Source: Linnemannia elongata | Lineage: Eukaryota; Mortierellomycota; Mortierellomycetes; Mortierellales; Mortierellaceae | Assembly: GCA_036320915.1 (NCBI GenBank) | Contig: JAXBDG010000012.1 | Location: forward strand, 248,001-312,000 | Direction: 5' to 3' | Length of the DNA: 64,000 bases | Shown: positions 2,257-52,111 of the stretch, in pieces | Numbering within the stretch: the first letter of the stretch is position 1 | How the letters are laid out: every line of letters starts with the position of its first letter | The notes under the pieces: generated by a model | Databases searched by the model: none | What the model was told of the DNA's origin: nothing | Seen by the model: only the letters and a program-made list of their open reading frames with translations | Made by a program: the position numbers and the translations under genes

Positions 2257-2383
2257 CAAGAAGTAAAAATCTTTCATCACAGTCACAAGTAAAATACCTG
2301 TTGAGAAGAAGTAAAATACTTGTAGGTTAGAAGTAAAAAATACTTGTTGCAAGAGGTATTTTACTTCTCCGCTAGAGGTATTA
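2257..2383. repeat. Degenerate AAGTAAAATACTTGT repeats with inverted copy
   Basis: Four direct copies of a 20-23 bp unit around AAGTAAAATAC(C/T)TGT occur at about 2258, 2287, 2309 and 2330. An inverted copy (GTATTTTACTTC) follows at about 2356, so the last copies form a near-palindrome. The array ends exactly at the base flanking the Helitron end at 2384. It may be the remnant of a small inverted-repeat element; no coding potential is seen. Confidence 0.6.
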
Positions 2384-2440
2384 CTAGCAAGTGCCCGTGG
2401 CTTCGCTCGCGGAGGGAGGTGAAAAAAAATAAAAGAGGGA
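2384..2440 (-). mobile_element. Helitron 3' terminus, copy A
   Basis: Read on the minus strand, a GC-rich hairpin (arms 2408-2412 and 2395-2399, 8-nt loop) is followed 7 nt later by terminal CTAG (2387-2384) and then a T. This is the Helitron signature: 3' hairpin, CTRR end, insertion between A and T. The element extends to higher coordinates. Its 5' end was not found, so only the terminal part is marked. It shares GAAGCATTG-AAGG-like sequence just inside the hairpin with copy C. Confidence 0.6.
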
Positions 2441-5400
2441 AGCATTGGAGGTGTACATTCGCCGACACAGCATTTGGATAGCTGAAGGACTCTGTTTTGC
2501 CCACAATCTACATGGCTGGCACAACTTGACTTGTATTGGGGTGGCTATAAACAAATATTCCTGTATTTTCTCCGATTTTGATCCCCTTTTCAGGCACCTT
2601 GCACACACTGTGTGCCCTGATCTTTGCTTTGACTTTTCTATGCCTGTGCTGCATGCCTACGTTCTCTAGGCGTATATGAATAAGAGGGATATTTTTTTGG
2701 GCTTTCCTTCTTACCTTGGCTCTTATCCCCCTTCTCCCTTTCCCCGACTTTGTTATTTCTTCGCCTTCACTTCAGCTCCTCTTCGGCTCCTCTTCAGATT
2801 TCTCTTTCTTCTTCCTTTTCTTTTCTACCCCTTCTACTCCCCTTCTATGCCATTTAATCCGTTTCCTTTCTCTCTCGTCTGCTTCCATGTTGTGCGCGTT
2901 GGCGCCATCATTCACGGCATAGTAGCAGTTAGGGAACGGATTGGTTGTGCTGCAAAGAAGCGTTGATACGTGCAATTATGGCCTGTTTTGCCGTTGGCGG
3001 TTTGATATTGCCATTTGTTTTCCTTTATAGTAGGGACAGAGGTGACCTTTCCCGCGTCTCTTAAAGCATTTGGTGAGAGGAGGAGAAAAGCAGAAAGAAG
3101 AAGAAGAGGTGATGGTCTGTTTGGGAAAGAGTGAAAGAAAAGATGACTTTCTGAGTAGACGATTGCCTTGTCGAGTTGGTGGTTTTGGATTGCATCAATT
3201 TTGCAGATCAGAAGCATATGACCGCTCTACAGCCCAGTGGCACTTGTTTGATAGCACGCTATTTTTTACACGGGTGGTGCACAACACGGCTCTAGCACGC
3301 CATTTTTTACTTTTTTATTTTTATATTTTTTGCACTGCAATTCTGTTAATTTTTATGCCAACAGCTACTGATGGGCGGATGAAGAGAGAGATGGACGCAT
3401 ATTCGAGAGATATGTTGTTTTGAAGAAGGGGGAAGGGGTTACAATGGTAGATACAAAAGAAAGAATGGCCGCACAATGGATAGGAACATCTACAGGTAGG
3501 AGGGACGACCTTTTTTTTATGTATCCATAGGCGAGAGATAAACTTATAAAGGAGACTTGAAAGGAAGAAGATATTGGGTTACATTGATACTTCTTCCTCT
3601 CTTCTCCATTCCTCCCTATTTTTTCGTTTATGCTTTTTTTCTTTTTCCTGCTGATAGCCAGTTTGATACCTTGCTGTCGTACGGTGTAGTAATTACATCT
3701 ATGCTACCGTAATGAAGAATGTTTGTTACTTTTGTGCTTTACTTTAACACCACGTCCAATGCAGGACAGTTACAGCACAGTGCAGTGGTAGAGAACACAA
3801 TGTAATAGACCAAAGAAAAGCAAGCGAATTTATTCAAGGCCCTTCTGTCGCGTTCTATAACTTTCGTCATTATATAGAAGTCTACGTAGAGTTACCCGTG
3901 CGTGAAGACGGGTATATACAGGCTGTCGTTGTTTGGCCTTGTGAAAATAATAGTAAGGAAAAATGCCTGTCTGATGGGAAATTGAAGTCGAGTGAACTTG
4001 ATGGGTGCTGTACCGTCGCCATTTGTCGTAGGAAGAATACAGGGATTGCGGAATGGATGATCCATGATTTTTGCAGAAGGGCGCCATTGAAAAAAATTCT
4101 CTACTCAGTAACTTTTCGTCTTTGGCAAGGACAAAGGACTGCTTTAAGTAAATGCAGCGCAGCCAGTTTCCCATGTCCTTGCAGCGCTCTCTCTCGGTCT
4201 CATGGTAGATAGTGTCAGGCATAAGGTGAGATCGGCATGTCGTTGTGAAATAAGAAAGAGATCCGTATCAAATCTAAGCTGATTCCTTTTGTTATAGATG
4301 TCGTTGTCCTGACAATGAAAGAGGGTAGCAATTACTCTCCGCAGCTGCCATCGGAGTGAGAAACAAACAAAGAACGAAAAAGTGTTTGTGCTACCAAAGG
4401 AAAGAAGGGATGGAGAGGAGAGAAAAGAGGAGACAGAGGCAAGCAAAGAAAAGGGTGGTGCTACGTAAAAGAATGAGAAACGAAATAGAGACGACGATGC
4501 TCATCGAACGTTACTCTTAAATGGCCTCTTCATAGTGCCTATAGCTGCGTCTCTTTACAAAATAGGCTGTACTGTAAGGCCGGAACAGTGCTCAAATTAG
4601 AAAACTGCCTATATTTATTTTATTTTATTTTTCTTTGAGAAAATGACATTGTCCACGGCGCGTTGCATCTTTTTTTGAATGAAAATGAAGGAGGGTACAA
4701 AAAAGGTACTATGCCCTTGAAAGGTCGACATAGTAACGCAACTTTCTTTTTCTCGTCCTTTCCTCGCGTCTATTCGTCACCTTCACTTTTGTTAACTTTT
4801 CATTCATCTGAGTCATTCCTAAAAAAAATGTGGTCAACTGCGATCACTCCCAGTTGGGTCAGAGTGTATGAAGGATATGTGGAAAGAAAGAGGGAGCATA
4901 GGTGTGGTGACAGAGAAGTCGAGGAGGCAGACCAATTATCACATTGCATGTAAGGGACAAACCTTTTTTTGAAGGGCAGTGCATGATTTTAAGGAACGCC
5001 TCACAGAGTCCCGATCAACATGCGATCAGACCATCAGGCCAAGCAAAATGCCCATAGACATAAACATATTCACTCCTGTTAACGAACACAATAACAAAGG
5101 AACGCCCAACAAATCGATCTTATTAGTATATATGCAGTTACCTCTACCATTCACCAAAGTACAGAAATGCGCCTTCAGGATTCGAAACAAATGACATGTA
5201 CAGTTGCCCGTGGCCTGCGTACTTTAGAGAAACGATTTAGAAGATTTTTAGGGAAAGAAGAAAAGAAACAAACCAAATGAAAGAAGAGAGCAAAGGGGTA
5301 AGGATAATATTAGAGAAAGTAAAGAAGAGAAAAAACTGAGGCGAGGGAGTGATGAGGAGGGAAAACAGAAGGAAAAGTTGAATAAGAGAAGCAATGAGGG

Positions 5401-6709: not shown

Positions 6710-9700
6710 TTAGGTGTTGTAAGCCTGGCAAAGTGTTTTTTCTAAACTGTTAAAGAAAATGACATTACAAAAGTTAATATCAGAGAGCTGGGACCGTCTC
6801 GCCGTATACACCATCCCCGCCTTGCTAAAAAGTCTCTCTGATTCAGAGGATGTGGCCTGAATCGTGAGATACATTCGTGCAATGCAGGAAATGCTGACGA
6901 AGTTATCCACGCCCTCCATCATCCGCCAAAATGCAAGTGGATCGTCAAAATAAGCAACGTTGCGTGTCTTGTTTAAAAGCAGCGACTTGTACGCAAGCAC
7001 ACAATACTCTGCATTCACCTGAGCAAGACGTAGCACGGCCTCCTCGCTAGCGTCACCAATTGGATTAAAGGTGTTGTTGGCAAGATCGTACTTCCGCTTC
7101 TCAATCGCCAGATCCACTTGTCGTTGAATGATTGCTCTATAAACGAGAGTTTCAGCTCTCAATCGGTTGGTGGGTGCTGGCCGCGTTCTCTTGTAGGGCA
7201 GTTGGACTGGTAAAAGGTCAAGGCTTGAAGATTGATCTGGGGTGCAATCTTGAAACGGATCGGAAGGATCAACTTGATCTGAAACTTGAGGGGGCACTTG
7301 GGCTTGGGCTCGACCGTAGAGACGACTTCTGGCGGGATCTTGTCCGACGCTGTGTGCTGTGGTTTCGGCGGCTGCGATGGCGGCTTTGGTGGCTTCGGCA
7401 GCTTCGGCGGCATCTTCCGCAGCATGCTCGGAAACTTGATGGGCATTAACTCGATCCCAGAGCTCGTCTCTTGCACAGCCTGGATTGAAGTACATAGAGA
7501 GCAGCATCCCGTCCGAGATATCATCCCGAGGCTAGGCAGACTCGATCTGGGCTTGCAGCTTCATGTGCATGGATTGCGCCACCTCGGTCTGTAAGGTAGC
7601 AACTGGTGGAAGTAGGTTATATACCTTTCTGTACACTTGGGAGATGGTGGAGTAAGCAGACCCACCAATCCAGTGTGTCAACTCAACGGCTGGATGCAAA
7701 ATCTCGATGATTTCGCCAAGGATATTCAACTCCTCGACCGAAAGCAGTTGGTTTCGAAACTCCTTGAAGTTCTTTCTCTCCTCCGATGGTACATCCCGTT
7801 TCAGTAATAGCTCCTGGAAGTTGCTTCTAGTACTGCCCTGTAGCTGTAGACCCTTTCCACCAGATGGAGCTTTGAGTTCCATCTGGTGACATTGGCCGAA
7901 ACAAAAAAAATATCATAGTCCATACTGTGAGGGAAGCTGACTGAAGGAACACCGTTGAGAGGAGGGGCATCGTTAACAGGAAGGGCACCGTTGACAGGAG
8001 GGACACCACTGGCTGGAGGGGCATCATCGGCAGGAGAGGCACCGTTGACAGGAAGGGCATCATTGGCAGGAAAATTGCTGTTGACTGGAGGGACAGCGTC
8101 ACCGTTGGTTGAGAGGTTACTGCTGGCTGGAATGTCACTATTGGCAATCGGGATAGCGACGCGCCTGGCAGAAAGAGCACCGTGCTTGTGGGTTGTCCAG
8201 TGTCGCTTGATGGCGGCTCTGGCTGTTGAGTTGCCGTTGGAATCCATATACACTCTTTCGCGATCACCGCAAAAGCCGGGGGTTTATCCCATGATTTATT
8301 AACACATCCTTGAAGCAGGTGGGATGTGCAGGGTATCCAATGAGCTCCCAATCGATCCTCCTGTTCCCGCAGAGACTTTTTGATATTACTTCCTTGATCA
8401 CTGGTCATGCCGACCACCTTCCCCTCCAGAGACCACGCACCAATGGCTTTGTCTAATATTGATATTGTAGCAAAAGAATGGTTCGTAAGCATATGAGAAC
8501 AAGGCAGAACTGGTAAGGAAAACTGTCTTTCATAAGGAAACAAAAAAAACGTCAAATTATTATATCTTACTGATTGCAGTTGTAAGAATGTCGGTATTGA
8601 CTTTAACGGCAAGGATTCTCTCCATGCCGATCACAACAGAAGACAGACGATGATCTCGGGTCATATAGTGAAAGGTTATCCCGAGATACTCTCGCTTGTT
8701 ATGACCGGAGGTCCAACCGTCAGCAGTGATGGCCCCACGAGTGACGTTGGCGTGAAAATAATTCACAGTCTGCGCCTTCCGTCTTTCAACAACCTAGCGC
8801 AGCCTGGACTTTAAGGTAGTAGTGCAGGGAAATCGGAACCGAGGGATTAGCATCTGGCAGAGAGTCTTGAGGGTCTTCGACGTGGCGGCAGAAAAAGGCA
8901 CTCCCTCAACAGCAACAAGTCGCATGAGTTGATTTACGGCGGCGTCCTGCTGGCTATCGTTCCACAAAGGTACAGCGCTGTCGGTCGTGTTGATAGATTT
9001 CTTGCTCCGCTTGGAAGTGTTAGGAGTTTCAGGGTTGGAGAGCTGTCTCAAAGAGATTGCGATCTTCTGCTGTGCCTGGAAGTGCTCGATGGCGTCGATA
9101 ATGCCGGGGTGCTGGGAGATGAGGTGATTTCGACGAATGGTGGTCCCATGTGATGCTTGGGGATGATGACCGCAGGCCATCTCCACTCCATTGACAATTC
9201 GAGGAAGTAGACAGTGAAACTCTTCATCGATCTTTCTGTAGCAGAAAAGTGTTGAGCTATTGGCTCGAAGAGTTGGAGGCTTAGGAGGTGCCGGCTTCTT
9301 GCTCTTGCCGGTGGGCTTGGGAGATGGCTGCATGGTGGGCGTGTCCGACTCGGGTCTGTGGAGTAGCTCTCGAATGGGGACAAGAGCCAATACCTTGAGT
9401 TTTGGAGGGGCAAGGTTATTGCAGTCCTCAACGCTCGGAAGTTTGCCCAATGGGATGGAAGAATAGAGCTGGCGCCACTCCGGACAGCATGTCTTGTCTT
9501 CTTCCTGGAGAAGCTTCTTTGCCGCAATACTTTCGGGTCAGAATCCTTCTCCAAATACCTGCTAACGGCGTCATAAACCTCTTGCGTCATGTTGGATTCG
9601 ACTTTAAAGGAAGCAGAAGTCGTGCTTGAGGAGGCCGCTTGAGACGTTGATGGAGTGGATGACCATGACGACGAGCGTTGGTTGACAGGGTAATAGGGAG

Positions 9701-32190: not shown

Positions 32191-32538
32191 CTAAGGACCC
32201 CAGCCGCTGTCTTGAGGCTTGGCTGGCTCGGAGATCCATCCAATATCGCTACGCTTCCCCCACTGATCATCTTGAGGCTTGACTGGCTCCGAGTCCCATC
32301 CGAGATCGCGCTTTCCCCACTGGTCATCCTGGGGCTTGGCAGGCTCGGCATTCCAGCCGACATCCTCACGCTTTCCCCAACCACTGTCTTGAGGCTTCTC
32401 AGGTTCAGAGATCCCGTGAATATCACCACGGCCGGTAGGAGGCGAGCCAGGGCCCTTGCTGTCGCGGGTTTCGATGGGTGCGGCTTGAACGAACAGGGCC
32501 AAGGCCAGAGTGAGGAGTAGTGTGATTGTAGTTTTCAT
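32191..32538 (-). CDS. Kexin-processed repeat peptide precursor 1
   Basis: A 115-aa secreted protein. Residues 1-20 form a signal peptide ending ALFVQAA. Then come four tandem repeats of about 19 residues: ...SEPEKPQDSGWGKR, EDVGWNAEPAKPQDDQWGKR, DLGWDSEPVKPQDDQWGKR, SDIGWISEPAKPQDSGWGP. Lys-Arg pairs at 56-57, 76-77 and 95-96 separate them. This matches the fungal kexin-processed (KEP) layout: Golgi Kex2 would cut after each KR to release 17-19-mers with the core GW-x(2)-EPxKPQD. Each unit ends Gly before KR. The peptides' role (pheromone-like, symbiotic or developmental) is unknown. Intronless; an ATAAAAGG element (minus strand, 32644-32651) lies about 105 bp upstream of the start. Confidence 0.85.
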   Translation of the reverse strand: MKTTITLLLTLALALFVQAAPIETRDSKGPGSPPTGRGDIHGISEPEKPQDSGWGKREDVGWNAEPAKPQDDQWGKRDLGWDSEPVKPQDDQWGKRSDIGWISEPAKPQDSGWGP

Positions 32539-35683: not shown

Positions 35684-37849
35684 TTATCGTCGAAGGTACC
35701 CATCGTGCTTGCCATGGTGGTCTCTGCCTTCGTCATGCTTGCCATGGTGGTCTCTGCCTTCGTCATGCTTGCCATGGTGGTCTCTGCTTTCGTCGTGCTT
35801 GCCATGGTGGTCCCTGCCTTCGTCGTGCTTGCCATGGTGGTCTCTGCCTTCGTCATGCTTGCCATGGTGGTCTCTGCCTTCGTCGTGCTTGCCATGGTGG
35901 TCCCTGCCTTCGTCGTGCTTGCCATGGTGGTCCCTGCCTTCGTCGTGCTTGCCATGGTGGTCTCTGCCTTCGTCATGCTTGCCATGGTGGTCCCTGCCTT
36001 CGTCATGCTTGCCATGGTGGTCTCTGCCTTCGTCATGCTTGCCATGGTGGTCTCTGCCTTCGTCATGCTTGCCATGGTGGTCTCTGCCTTCGTCGTGCTT
36101 GCCATGGTGGTCCCTGCCTTCGTCATGCTTGCCATGGTGGTCTCTGCCTTCGTCGTGCTTGCCATGGTGGTCCCTGCCTTCGTCATGCTTGCCATGGTGG
36201 TCCCTGCCTTCGTCATGCTTGCCATGGTGGTCCCTGCCTTCGTCATGCTTGCCATGGTGGTCTCTGCCTTCGTCGTGCTTGCCATGGTGGTCCCTGCCTT
36301 CGTCATGCTTGCCATGGTGGTCCCTGCCTTCGTCATGCTTGCCATGGTGGTCCCTGCCTTCGTCATGCTTGCCATGGTGGTCTCTGCCTTCGTCGTGCTT
36401 GCCATGGTGGTCCCTGCCTTCGTCATGCTTGCCATGGTGGTCCCTGCCTTCGTCATGCTTGCCATGGTGGTCTCTGCCTTCGTCATGCTTGCCATGGTGG
36501 TCCCTGCCTTCGTCATGCTTGCCATGGTGGTCTCTGCCTTCGTCATGCTTGCCATGGTGGTCCCTGCCTTCGTCGTGCTTGCCATGGTGGTCCCTGCCTT
36601 CGTCGTGCTTGCCATGGTGGTCCCTGCCTTCGTCGTGCTTGCCATGGTGGTCTCTGCCTTCGTCATGCTTGCCATGGTGGTCCCTGCCTTCGTCGTGCTT
36701 GCCATGGTGGTCCCTGCCTTCGTCGTGCTTGCCATGGTGGTCTCTGCCTTCGTCATGCTTGCCATGGTGGTCCCTGCCTTCGTCATGCTTGCCATGGTGG
36801 TCCCTGCCTTCGTCATGCTTGCCATGGTGGTCTCTGCCTTCGTCATGCTTGCCATGGTGGTCCCTGCCTTCGTCATGCTTGCCATGGTGGTCCCTGCCTT
36901 CGTCATGCTTGCCATGGTGGTCTCTGCCTTCGTCGTGCTTGCCATGGTGGTCTCTGCCTTCGTCGCTCTTGCCACCGCCATCGTTCTTGCCACCGCCATC
37001 GCCATCGTTCTTGCCACCACCATCGCCATCGTTCTTGCCACCGCCATCGCCATCGTTCTTGCCACCGCCATCGCCATCGTTCTTGCCACCGCCATCGCCA
37101 TCGTTCTTGCCACCACCATCGCCATCGTTCTTGCCACCGCCATCGCCATCGTTCTTGCCACCGCCATCGCCATCGTTCTTGCCACCACCATCGCCATCGT
37201 TCTTGCCACCGCCATCGCCATCGTTCTTGCCACCACCATCGCCATCGTTCTTGCCACCACCATCGCCATCGTTCTTGCCACCGCCATCGCCATCGTTCTT
37301 GCCACCGCCATCGCCATCGTTCTTGCCACCACCATCGCCATCGTTCTTGCCACCGCCATCGCCATCGTTCTTGCCACCGCCATCGTTCTTGCCACCGCCA
37401 TCGCCATCGTTCTTGCCACCGCCATCGCCATCGTTCTTGCCACCGCCATCGCTCTTGCCACCGCCACCGCCATCGCTCTTGCCACCGCCACCGCCATCGT
37501 TCTTGCCGCCGCCATCGTTCTTGCCACCGCCATCGCTCTTGCCACCGCCACCGCCATCGCTCTTGCCGCTTCCTCCGCCAAGGTAGGCACGTCGATTGAG
37601 CGAACGCTTTTTCTTGTCGTCGCCCGCATCATCACGCCTCATGAAAGAATGTATCACGTCCGCGACACTAGCAACGGGAACAGCACCCGCATGGCGCTTG
37701 GCGACATCGATTTCATGCGAAGCGAAGGATCTGGTCAGAACATTTGCATGGCGTTTCTCAACAGACACGAGTTGATTGGACGTGGAGACCGGGGCCGACT
37801 GGATAACAGCCAAGGCTGCGAGGATTGTAATGAGGGTGAAAGTCCTCAT
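35684..37849 (-). CDS. Secreted His-rich repeat protein, 721 aa
   Basis: Signal peptide MRTFTLITILAALAVIQS, then a pro-like region with several dibasic sites (VEKR-H, VAKR-H, FMRR-D, KKKR-S, LNRR) that kexin could cut into peptides such as HANVLTRSFASHEIDVA. Residues about 90-290 are Gly/Asn/Asp repeats, mostly the 8-mer GGGKNDGD. Residues about 295-715 are about 42 near-perfect copies of DEGRDHHGKH, followed by DGYLRR. The His-His pairs and acidic residues suggest metal binding or a hydrated matrix, by inference. Nucleotide units are 30 bp and 24 bp, nearly identical, so copy number should vary between strains. The absence of stops keeps other frames open; those ORFs are artefacts. A TATAAATA box lies about 130 bp upstream. 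Confidence 0.85.
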   Translation of the reverse strand: MRTFTLITILAALAVIQSAPVSTSNQLVSVEKRHANVLTRSFASHEIDVAKRHAGAVPVASVADVIHSFMRRDDAGDDKKKRSLNRRAYLGGGSGKSDGGGGGKSDGGGKNDGGGKNDGGGGGKSDGGGGGKSDGGGKNDGDGGGKNDGDGGGKNDGGGKNDGDGGGKNDGDGGGKNDGDGGGKNDGDGGGKNDGDGGGKNDGDGGGKNDGDGGGKNDGDGGGKNDGDGGGKNDGDGGGKNDGDGGGKNDGDGGGKNDGDGGGKNDGDGGGKNDGDGGGKNDGDGGGKNDGGGKSDEGRDHHGKHDEGRDHHGKHDEGRDHHGKHDEGRDHHGKHDEGRDHHGKHDEGRDHHGKHDEGRDHHGKHDEGRDHHGKHDEGRDHHGKHDEGRDHHGKHDEGRDHHGKHDEGRDHHGKHDEGRDHHGKHDEGRDHHGKHDEGRDHHGKHDEGRDHHGKHDEGRDHHGKHDEGRDHHGKHDEGRDHHGKHDEGRDHHGKHDEGRDHHGKHDEGRDHHGKHDEGRDHHGKHDEGRDHHGKHDEGRDHHGKHDEGRDHHGKHDEGRDHHGKHDEGRDHHGKHDEGRDHHGKHDEGRDHHGKHDEGRDHHGKHDEGRDHHGKHDEGRDHHGKHDEGRDHHGKHDEGRDHHGKHDEGRDHHGKHDEGRDHHGKHDEGRDHHGKHDEGRDHHGKHDESRDHHGKHDEGRDHHGKHDEGRDHHGKHDGYLRR
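35700..36965. repeat. Minisatellite: about 42 x 30 bp
   Basis: Near-identical 30-bp units (plus strand GTGCTTGCCATGGTGGTCTC-type) differ at only two recurring sites (A/G in the His/Asp codon context, T/C in the Arg/Gly context). They encode DEGRDHHGKH on the minus strand. Confidence 0.98.
36966..37570. repeat. Minisatellite: 24-bp and shorter Gly-coding units
   Basis: Units of GCCACCGCCATCGCCATCGTTCTT, with 15-bp variants at both ends, encode GKNDGDGG / GKSDGG on the minus strand. About 18 full units are seen. Confidence 0.95.
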
Positions 37850-50219: not shown

Positions 50220-50813
50220 GGTGGGCTATAAAGAGGCGCATGAGGGGGTGCGAATATCGTGGAGGCAAATCATGCGATCTTTGAAACAACGGAAGGTACA
50301 AAAGAAAAAAGAAATCTCTTGCAGAAAAAAAGATTGAAGACAAAAGCCATTTCTCCAAGAAGTAACCACACCGGACCACCAGAGAAAAGAGCAAGTGAGA
50401 AGAGACGACAAATGTAATCAGAGAGGATATAGGAAAGAGTCCAGAGGAAATATCCAATGCGATCAAGGATAGGGTACATCCGCTCCTAGCACACGTAATT
50501 GCACCAACTGCATGGAAAATAGGGACGAGCACAAAGGGAAGGGTGAGAAAGAAAATTTTCTTGCGTCTTATTTCACCGCCCTCTCCTCCTTTTTTTTTTC
50601 TTACTTTTTGTTTGGCATTCATTTTCTTCAACATACATGCCAAGCAACAATTCAAATAAAACCTTTTATTTTATGCTACGAACGCGCTGGCTGGATGATT
50701 GAGTACGCATCTCCTACTCAATTCAAGGTAGAATGATGTGCCTCGGGAAAGATCTCGTCTACTGTCTTCCCAGTCGATCGTATCTACCTCCGCAGAACCA
50801 TCACCCACTTCCA
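50220..50813. other. Intergenic, no gene seen
   Basis: A 184-codon ORF on the minus strand spans this region but is Phe/Ser/Arg-rich with no domain and is probably chance. A T9 run is near 50589. Confidence 0.45.
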
Positions 50814-51122
50814 TTAGATCACTGTGTCCACCTCTGCAGATTCACCATCACGTTTGTCCCAAGGATTCGTATCCCATGGATCGTTCTTGACTTCTTGAGG
50901 GTTCGAGGGTACAGCCTGCCAGCCCATATCCCGCTTGTCCCAAGGGTTGTTGTTCGTGACTTGTTGCACCGGTTCGGAGGGAGCACCTTGCCAGTCCATG
51001 TTGCTGGGGGTCAGGTCTTGCAGGGTGGAGGCAGCAGCGGGCTCTGGGACGGGTGTAATGGGCGCTGCTTTTGTGACGAGCGTGCAAGCTAGAGCCAAGA
51101 GAAGTGCGGTTGAGAATTTCAT
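50814..51122 (-). CDS. Kexin-processed repeat peptide precursor 2
   Basis: A 102-aa secreted protein. Signal peptide MKFSTALLLALACTLVTKA, Pro/Ala spacer, then two diverged repeats: MDWQGAPSEPVQQVTNNNPWDKR and MGWQAVPSNPQEVKNDPWDT-NPWDKR, with Lys-Arg at 63-64 and 90-91 and a short acidic tail. Kex2 cutting would release peptides with the core [D/G]WQ-x(2)-PS-x-P and a PWD end. The WDKRDMGW junction matches WGKRDLGW of precursor 1 and WGKRDTEW of precursor 3, so the three are probably paralogous despite different lengths. Intronless; TATAAATA lies at 51171-51178, about 50 bp upstream. Confidence 0.8.
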   Translation of the reverse strand: MKFSTALLLALACTLVTKAAPITPVPEPAAASTLQDLTPSNMDWQGAPSEPVQQVTNNNPWDKRDMGWQAVPSNPQEVKNDPWDTNPWDKRDGESAEVDTVI

Positions 51123-51170
51123 TTTTTGTGTGGTGGGAGGTTGCTGTTGAAATAAAGGTCGAAGCGGCGG

Positions 51171-51178
51171 TATTTATA
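51171..51178 (-). promoter_or_regulatory. TATA box (TATAAATA) of peptide precursor 2
   Basis: TATAAATA on the minus strand, about 50 bp upstream of the ATG at 51122. Identical to the box before the His-rich protein gene. Confidence 0.55.
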
Positions 51179-51859
51179 AGAGCGTGAAGGGAATCAGAGA
51201 GCAGGTGATCGGGTGAGTTTTCATGTTGCATTCCAAACGGTTCGATTAGAACTCCAAAGGGACAACAACAACAGCAAAAAAAAAAATATCACAACCCGAG
51301 AGAAGAAGGAAGTACAACAGAGGGACCCTGACTCGGTAAATATAAAGGCTTGTTGTGCTTGTGAGAAATGTGGGCTCAGTGGTATGTAAGTGTGGTGCTC
51401 ATTGCTGACAATTATTCATACTGGCATTCGTCAGTCAATAAACATGCAAAGACGGCGTGTTCAAGGGTCGAAACGTTAATTTTTTCTCTCCCCTTCACTC
51501 CTTTTTTCTCATTTTCAACCAGCAATAACGCCCAAAAAAAAAACGATATCTGTTTTTTTTTGAAAGGGGGACTACAAATAACATTTGTTCCACGAGTAGG
51601 GCTACGATCACTTGGAGAAAAAGGAACGGCGCGTAATGCATTCGTTTGTGTTCTCTCCACCTTTTTTCAGTCTCCCATTCCTTTTAGAATTGCCTCTCGA
51701 TTACAACTTACAAACATTATATTTAGCATCTAAAGAAAAAAAGCAAGGAAGGCATGTATAGAGGGAAAATGTCGTTGCATTGAAAGAAAGAGGGATAGAA
51801 TATAACGTCTATGGAACGGCATGTTACATGGCGACATGATCACGGTCGTTGAGAGAGTT
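51179..51859. other. Intergenic, no gene seen
   Basis: Separates two peptide precursor genes on the same strand. A-rich tracts only. Confidence 0.5.
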
Positions 51860-52111
51860 CTACTCGGTATCACTCTTGTCCCAGGTCATATCTCCAGGGA
51901 TACGAGAAGCGTGGTTGTCAGCAGGAGAGCTCCACTCGGTGTCGCGCTTTCCCCAGTTCAGATCTCCAGGGACACGAGAAGCGTGGTTGTCAGCAGGAGA
52001 GTTCTTCTCGGAATCGAGCTTTTCAACCGCCTGTTCGATGGGTGCGGATTGGCCGAATAGGGCGACAATGGAGCCAAGGGTCAAGAGAATGGTAATAGTA
52101 GTTGCTTTCAT
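51860..52111 (-). CDS. Kexin-processed repeat peptide precursor 3
   Basis: An 83-aa secreted protein. Signal peptide MKATTITILLTLGSIVALFG, then two near-identical repeats NSPADNHASRVPGDLNWGKR and SSPADNHASRIPGDMTWDKS separated by DTEW. The first ends in Lys-Arg (55-56); in the second the site has become Lys-Ser, so only one kexin cut is expected. The protein then ends DTE. Repeats are 80-90% identical at nucleotide level, showing recent duplication. It lies 0.74 kb from precursor 2 in the same orientation. An ATAAATA element is at 52196-52202. Confidence 0.75.
   Translation of the reverse strand: MKATTITILLTLGSIVALFGQSAPIEQAVEKLDSEKNSPADNHASRVPGDLNWGKRDTEWSSPADNHASRIPGDMTWDKSDTE

Follow-up and report, generated by a model that had tools for sequence, protein, structure and literature searches.

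Putative KEX2-processed repeat protein precursors with a shared tryptophan-flanked Lys-Arg junction on one contig of Linnemannia elongata

Ascomycete alpha-factor precursors carry tandem peptides that are cut out by Kex2 and that often have aromatic ends. A class of secreted fungal precursors in which repeat units are separated by such sites, the KEX2-processed repeat proteins, was named KEPs in PMC6339444, which describes their role in early-diverging fungi as still to be determined. A survey of 1461 strains reports KEPs in 38 of 39 Mucoromycota strains, at 9.15 per strain on average, and counts another KEP gene nearby for 767 of the 6120 KEPs that are without DUF3328 genes (PMC7329392); by that count, neighbouring KEP genes are not unusual. 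Linear, minimally modified KEP peptides have been detected in mushrooms, as described in PMC9769878. The string "Mortierell" is absent from the main texts of PMC6339444 and PMC7329392. Here we describe four genes, designated A to D, that constitute a real but modest family, apparently of this known kind.

The window, by which we mean the whole 64,000-nucleotide stretch of DNA analysed (G000:C4:248001-312000), contains three of the four genes, all on the minus strand and each readable as an intron-free frame encoding a secreted-looking precursor. Gene A (32191-32538) encodes 115 amino acids and contains a 57-60-bp tandem repeat; its four repeat units read GISEPEKPQDSGWG, EDVGWNAEPAKPQDDQWG, DLGWDSEPVKPQDDQWG and SDIGWISEPAKPQDSGWGP; a motif scan locates its three W-G-K-R junctions at 32368-32379, 32308-32319 and 32251-32262 on the minus strand, and the junction of full motif form is WGKRDLGW. 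Gene B (50814-51122, 102 amino acids) contains two units, starting NMDWQGAPSEP and DMGWQAVPSNP, that are only loosely alike, together with two W-D-K-R junctions found by motif scan at 50931-50942 and 50850-50861 (minus strand), the full form being WDKRDMGW. Gene C (51860-52111, 83 amino acids) has a body of two near-identical 72-bp units (SPADNHASR...) and a single intact KR site, in the junction WGKRDTEW at 51944-51955 (minus strand); its second junction, at 51872-51883 on the same strand, has decayed from KR to KS and reads WDKS. B and C stand in tandem with a gap of 737 bp, and A is 18.3 kb distant. For A, B and C, the frames, coordinates and junctions, as well as the B/C tandem, agree with the first-pass annotation of this DNA.

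Genome searches, which covered the 51.1-Mb, 32-contig assembly, identified with B as query a fourth gene, D, which lies beyond the window elsewhere on its contig (C4:139534-139851, plus strand, 105 amino acids). Its order is signal peptide, short acidic stretch, KR, DFSWNGTPSKPESENSHWK, KR, DTAWNGTPSKPESKDSHWK, KR, and an acidic tail starting AEAQEAE. By a crude hydropathy and small-residue rule, a signal-peptide-like start is present in all four precursors. The mature parts of A, B and C start with [AS]-A-P-[IV], which is weak evidence alone because a frame with other repeats, at 37849(-), has this entry too. Directly after the B stop codon, at 50760-50861 (minus strand), there is sequence which, when read in another frame, is by eye like the tail of B (DGESAEVDTVI versus DGSAEVDTIDW in B), suggestive of a duplicated end.

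The surroundings of the four genes contain several other features. The frame at 35684-37849 (minus strand) encodes a 721-amino-acid secreted-looking protein with a signal-peptide-like start, several KR sites, GGGKNDGD repeats and ~42 copies of a His-rich decapeptide, DEGRDHHGKH; considered as a family member, it was set aside, having no WxKR and other repeats, and Pfam returned nothing for it at E up to 0.01. The Pfam "Decapeptide" match in this region is to another frame of the DEGRDHHGKH array. A hAT transposase dimerisation domain lies at 6713-7531 (minus strand). Near D, the segment C4:138001-148000 (L037) has minus-strand frames at 2268-3500, 4080-5336 and 9157-9549, two of them matching the Pif1 2B domain, one of these two just under its cut-off, and one having a Cas12f1-like TNB zinc ribbon, possibly of TnpB/Fanzor type. 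The protein encoded at C4:46843-47523 (plus strand; L035) looks secreted and has a long stalk of Pro-Ser-Gly repeats followed by a C-terminus rich in Cys.

The junction pattern W[GD]KRDx[GE]W, picked post hoc after the sequences had been seen, occurs three times in the six frames of the window and not once in 200 first-order Markov shuffles, and the looser WxK[RS]x2-4W occurs eight times versus a shuffle mean of 0.96. Because the window motif was post hoc, WxKRDxxW was searched genome-wide, giving 15 sites in 51.1 Mb versus one for the reversed pattern. Four of the 15 fall in signal-peptide precursors, all of them within 161 kb of C4, from 139.5 to 300.1 kb. The first-pass annotation had named as its refuting case a motif occurring at random in unrelated secreted proteins; this is not what is observed, since the other 11 of the 15 sites lie in frames of 9-159 amino acids that by eye are not secreted-precursor-like, with a stop inside the motif in three, and some of these frames could be exon pieces. 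A repeated-junction pattern (WxK[R/S] twice) gave 72 sites in the genome versus 56 in the reversed control, three of the 72 being in A and D and the other 69 not scored frame by frame; a stricter form gave three sites, two of them within A, versus five in the control. A scan of 162 kb of C4 (1-48, 128-158 and 238-322 kb) with a crude filter (signal-like start, fewer than 350 amino acids, repeats or WxK[RS]) revealed no fifth member, the remainder of C4 being covered by the genome-wide searches only. Since those searches score only the best candidates, four genes is a lower bound. Four pattern matches in viral contigs and 32 in contigs of prokaryote genomes included no confirmed relative, as expected for a fungal gene. 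Because the frames are short and their contig carries transposon-like remnants, they could in principle be translated noise in which the motif is coincidental; the motif statistics, the four signal-peptide frames within 161 kb and the synonymous-leaning repeat differences described below all argue against chance, a reading that is already disfavoured and that we regard as very improbable.

The links among the four genes differ in strength. With B as query, the genome search returned D at 6.9e-7 and A at 0.29, C not being returned at E up to 10, while D as query returned B at 4.2e-5, A at 0.004 (with a second A stretch at 0.74) and C at 0.057. At the default cut of 0.001, A as query returned C alone, at 5.4e-4, and C as query returned A at 0.0026 and D at 0.065 and did not return B. 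A frame on contig C5, matched by D at E 4.2, was by eye not a precursor. In local alignments of the mature parts, for which as for all these shuffle-based z scores the values are raised somewhat by internal repeats, A-D scored z 9.8, B-D 7.7 and A-B 5.6, with 0 of 3000 shuffles as good in each case, and the pairs with C scored 4.6 (C-D, 1 of 3000), 3.2 (A-C, 20 of 3000) and 3.1 (B-C, 34 of 3000). Including the signal peptide, the z scores were 8.2 for A-C (0 of 3000), 6.0 for C-D (2 of 3000) and 3.1 for B-C (29 of 3000). The motif W-x3-P-x2-P is present three times in A and twice each in B and D, versus shuffle means of 0.12, 0.09 and 0.03, as many copies arising in 3, 60 and 8 of 20000 shuffles, respectively; it is absent from C.

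Thus, by the mature-part alignments and the W-x3-P-x2-P counts, A, B and D are related in body as well as junction, and C appears tied to the family mainly via its junction and signal peptide, a weak link. When the four genes were compared as DNA, flanking sequence included, a single match emerged, 30 bp common to A and C, which by reckoning of coordinates falls in the signal-peptide region; with this one match only, there is no sign of recent segmental copies. A, B and D look like paralogous precursors of the KEX2-processed-repeat type, and C is probably another. The dispersed family proposed in the first-pass annotation is supported, as a small set of Kex2-type precursors that look secreted, and gains a member in D, on the same contig, with some amendments. 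Its remark that the repeat bodies differ, illustrated with B and C, holds for C only, A and B having W-x3-P-x2-P in common; its inclusion of C rests on a weak link, searches with B and with C not returning each other. As for the family being undescribed, the class to which it belongs is well described, and a narrow literature search found no published description of this particular family.

The repeat units were compared within genes by the Nei-Gojobori method, and dS exceeded dN in nine of nine pairs, which are non-independent and have only ~7-15 synonymous sites each. Of the six pairs in A, five have saturated dS versus dN of 0.09-0.41 and one has dS 0.85 versus dN 0.24; the unit pair of D has dS 0.64 versus dN 0.13, that of B saturated dS versus dN 0.27, and that of C dS 0.19 versus dN 0.12. 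Summed over the six adjacent pairs, third codon positions hold 36 of the 72 differences, and the third-position excess is significant alone in one of the six (A units 2-3, P 0.009). These differences speak for conservation of the peptide body in A, with weaker signs of it in D and B; the two C units look like a recent duplicate. Of the suggestion that a conserved junction accompanies fast-evolving repeats, the conserved junction is retained and the fast repeats are not, given that the body is kept among A, B and D and that the differences, over few sites, lean synonymous.

A processing enzyme was sought in the genome, where P-proprotein matches are located at C30:1011926 and C30:1016600, ~5 kb apart. 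The frame at C30:1011926 is closer to yeast kexin (8e-34) than to furin (9e-23), and the match at C30:1016600 has one stop inside; on these similarities, a kexin is encoded in the genome. KEPs are recognised by at least two similar units with Kex2 sites between them, a layout that is clear in A and D; the units of B, which has two KR sites, are only loosely alike, and those of C are near-identical but come with a single KR site. The layout and the genomic kexin together would place A and D among the KEX2-processed repeat proteins, with B marginal. The few KR sites in B and C, and their loosely alike or decayed units, would also suit an intact secreted repeat protein, or long fragments of one, acting at the cell wall or surface, with KR incidental or used for maturation only; we consider this unlikely, as the repeat units of both A and D have KR at the same position, flanked by conserved Trp residues.

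If A-D are processed as KEPs, each precursor would enter the secretory pathway by way of its signal peptide and be cut by kexin after each Lys-Arg, both steps being suggested by sequence, whereupon the basic residues would be trimmed and linear peptides of ~17-27 residues released to the cell exterior. Those from A, B and D would have the form [D/E/S]...W-x3-P-x2-P...W-[G/D/K], predicted products including DLGWDSEPVKPQDDQW, with its G kept or lost, and DTAWNGTPSKPESKDSHW, with its K kept or lost. The junction seems conserved mainly because the peptide's own first and last residues flank KR. The released peptides may serve as extracellular signals, hormone- or pheromone-like, to the fungus itself or its neighbours, and the two Trp residues may be the receptor-contacting ends of the peptide. 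That A-D are paralogous KEP-type precursors of linear extracellular signalling peptides is a tentative proposal, plausible rather than probable, the signalling role in it being guessed from the architecture and by exclusion. A more specific version, which we consider improbable, is that this early-diverging fungus has in A-D a localised family of hormones or pheromones made of linear peptides capped by Trp; if true, peptides would serve for self or mate signalling in a lineage whose pheromone chemistry is largely unknown. PMC9769878 describes kep knockouts in Coprinopsis as being without detectable phenotype, an absence that counts against the signalling explanation.

The same paper suggests interaction with the biotic environment for the Coprinopsis KEPs, and PMC6339444 includes effectors among possible KEP roles, both consistent with KEPs whose peptides act outward, as effectors or antimicrobials on plants, bacteria or other microbes, rather than as self-signals. 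The KR-cut fragments of A-D have net charges of 0 to -6 and are mostly acidic, and the mature parts of all four precursors contain no Tyr and no Cys. Typical membrane-active antimicrobial peptides are unlike such neutral to acidic, Cys-free fragments, which argues against antimicrobial action in particular, and outward action as a whole we judge possible but somewhat unlikely.

The same precursor layout is seen in ustiloxin/dikaritin-type RiPPs, which are cyclised and carry UstYa (DUF3328) modifications, and PMC7329392 describes a type, P-3, with W and P, in which DUF3328 genes lie near four of seven members. The lack of Tyr in the four mature parts speaks against this origin. A whole-genome search for UstYa gave zero matches, its controls also giving zero, and no UstYa was reported by a Pfam scan that took in 16 of the window's 35 frames with at least 190 amino acids; a RiPP precursor family seems to us very improbable. 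For the signalling proposal, STE2 and STE3 receptors were searched for in the genome with zero matches and zero for the controls, and PAM, which could amidate the A and C peptides at their C-terminal W-G, likewise gave zero with silent controls. As no control rang, the zeros for STE2, STE3, UstYa and PAM neither help nor hurt. Amidation fits poorly since KR is preceded by Lys in gene D and by Asp in gene B. Pfam searches of the four precursors gave nothing above the cut-off and four sub-threshold matches, the best at E 0.013, and no match to MF_alpha or MF_alpha_N up to E 1 in any of them.

In comparison with known systems, A-D resemble KEPs in having a signal-peptide-like start and, clearly so in A and D, short repeat units separated by KR, and differ in a repeat of their own, W-x3-P-x2-P...W-x-KR-D-x-x-W. 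The family is compact, has a clear core motif and was encountered nowhere beyond 161 kb of one contig; small enough for deletion or synthesis in its entirety, it offers a tractable test case. With alpha-factor precursors the genes have in common a layout of tandem peptides with Kex2 sites, but they are without an MF_alpha match and most of their junctions are followed by D/E/S rather than by Ste13-type dipeptides, the AEAQEAE after the last KR of D being a faint likeness noted by eye. Dikaritin precursors (ustiloxin, phomopsin, asperipin) likewise have Kex2-cut repeats after a signal peptide, but the ustiloxin, asperipin and phomopsin cores contain Tyr, whereas mature A-D contain none. Lastly, the KEPs of Rhizophagus irregularis also come from an early-diverging fungus, but those treated in PMC6339444 are Tyr-rich and mostly carry Ste13 signatures, whereas A-D are devoid of Tyr and have a Ste13-like stretch only in the tail of D.
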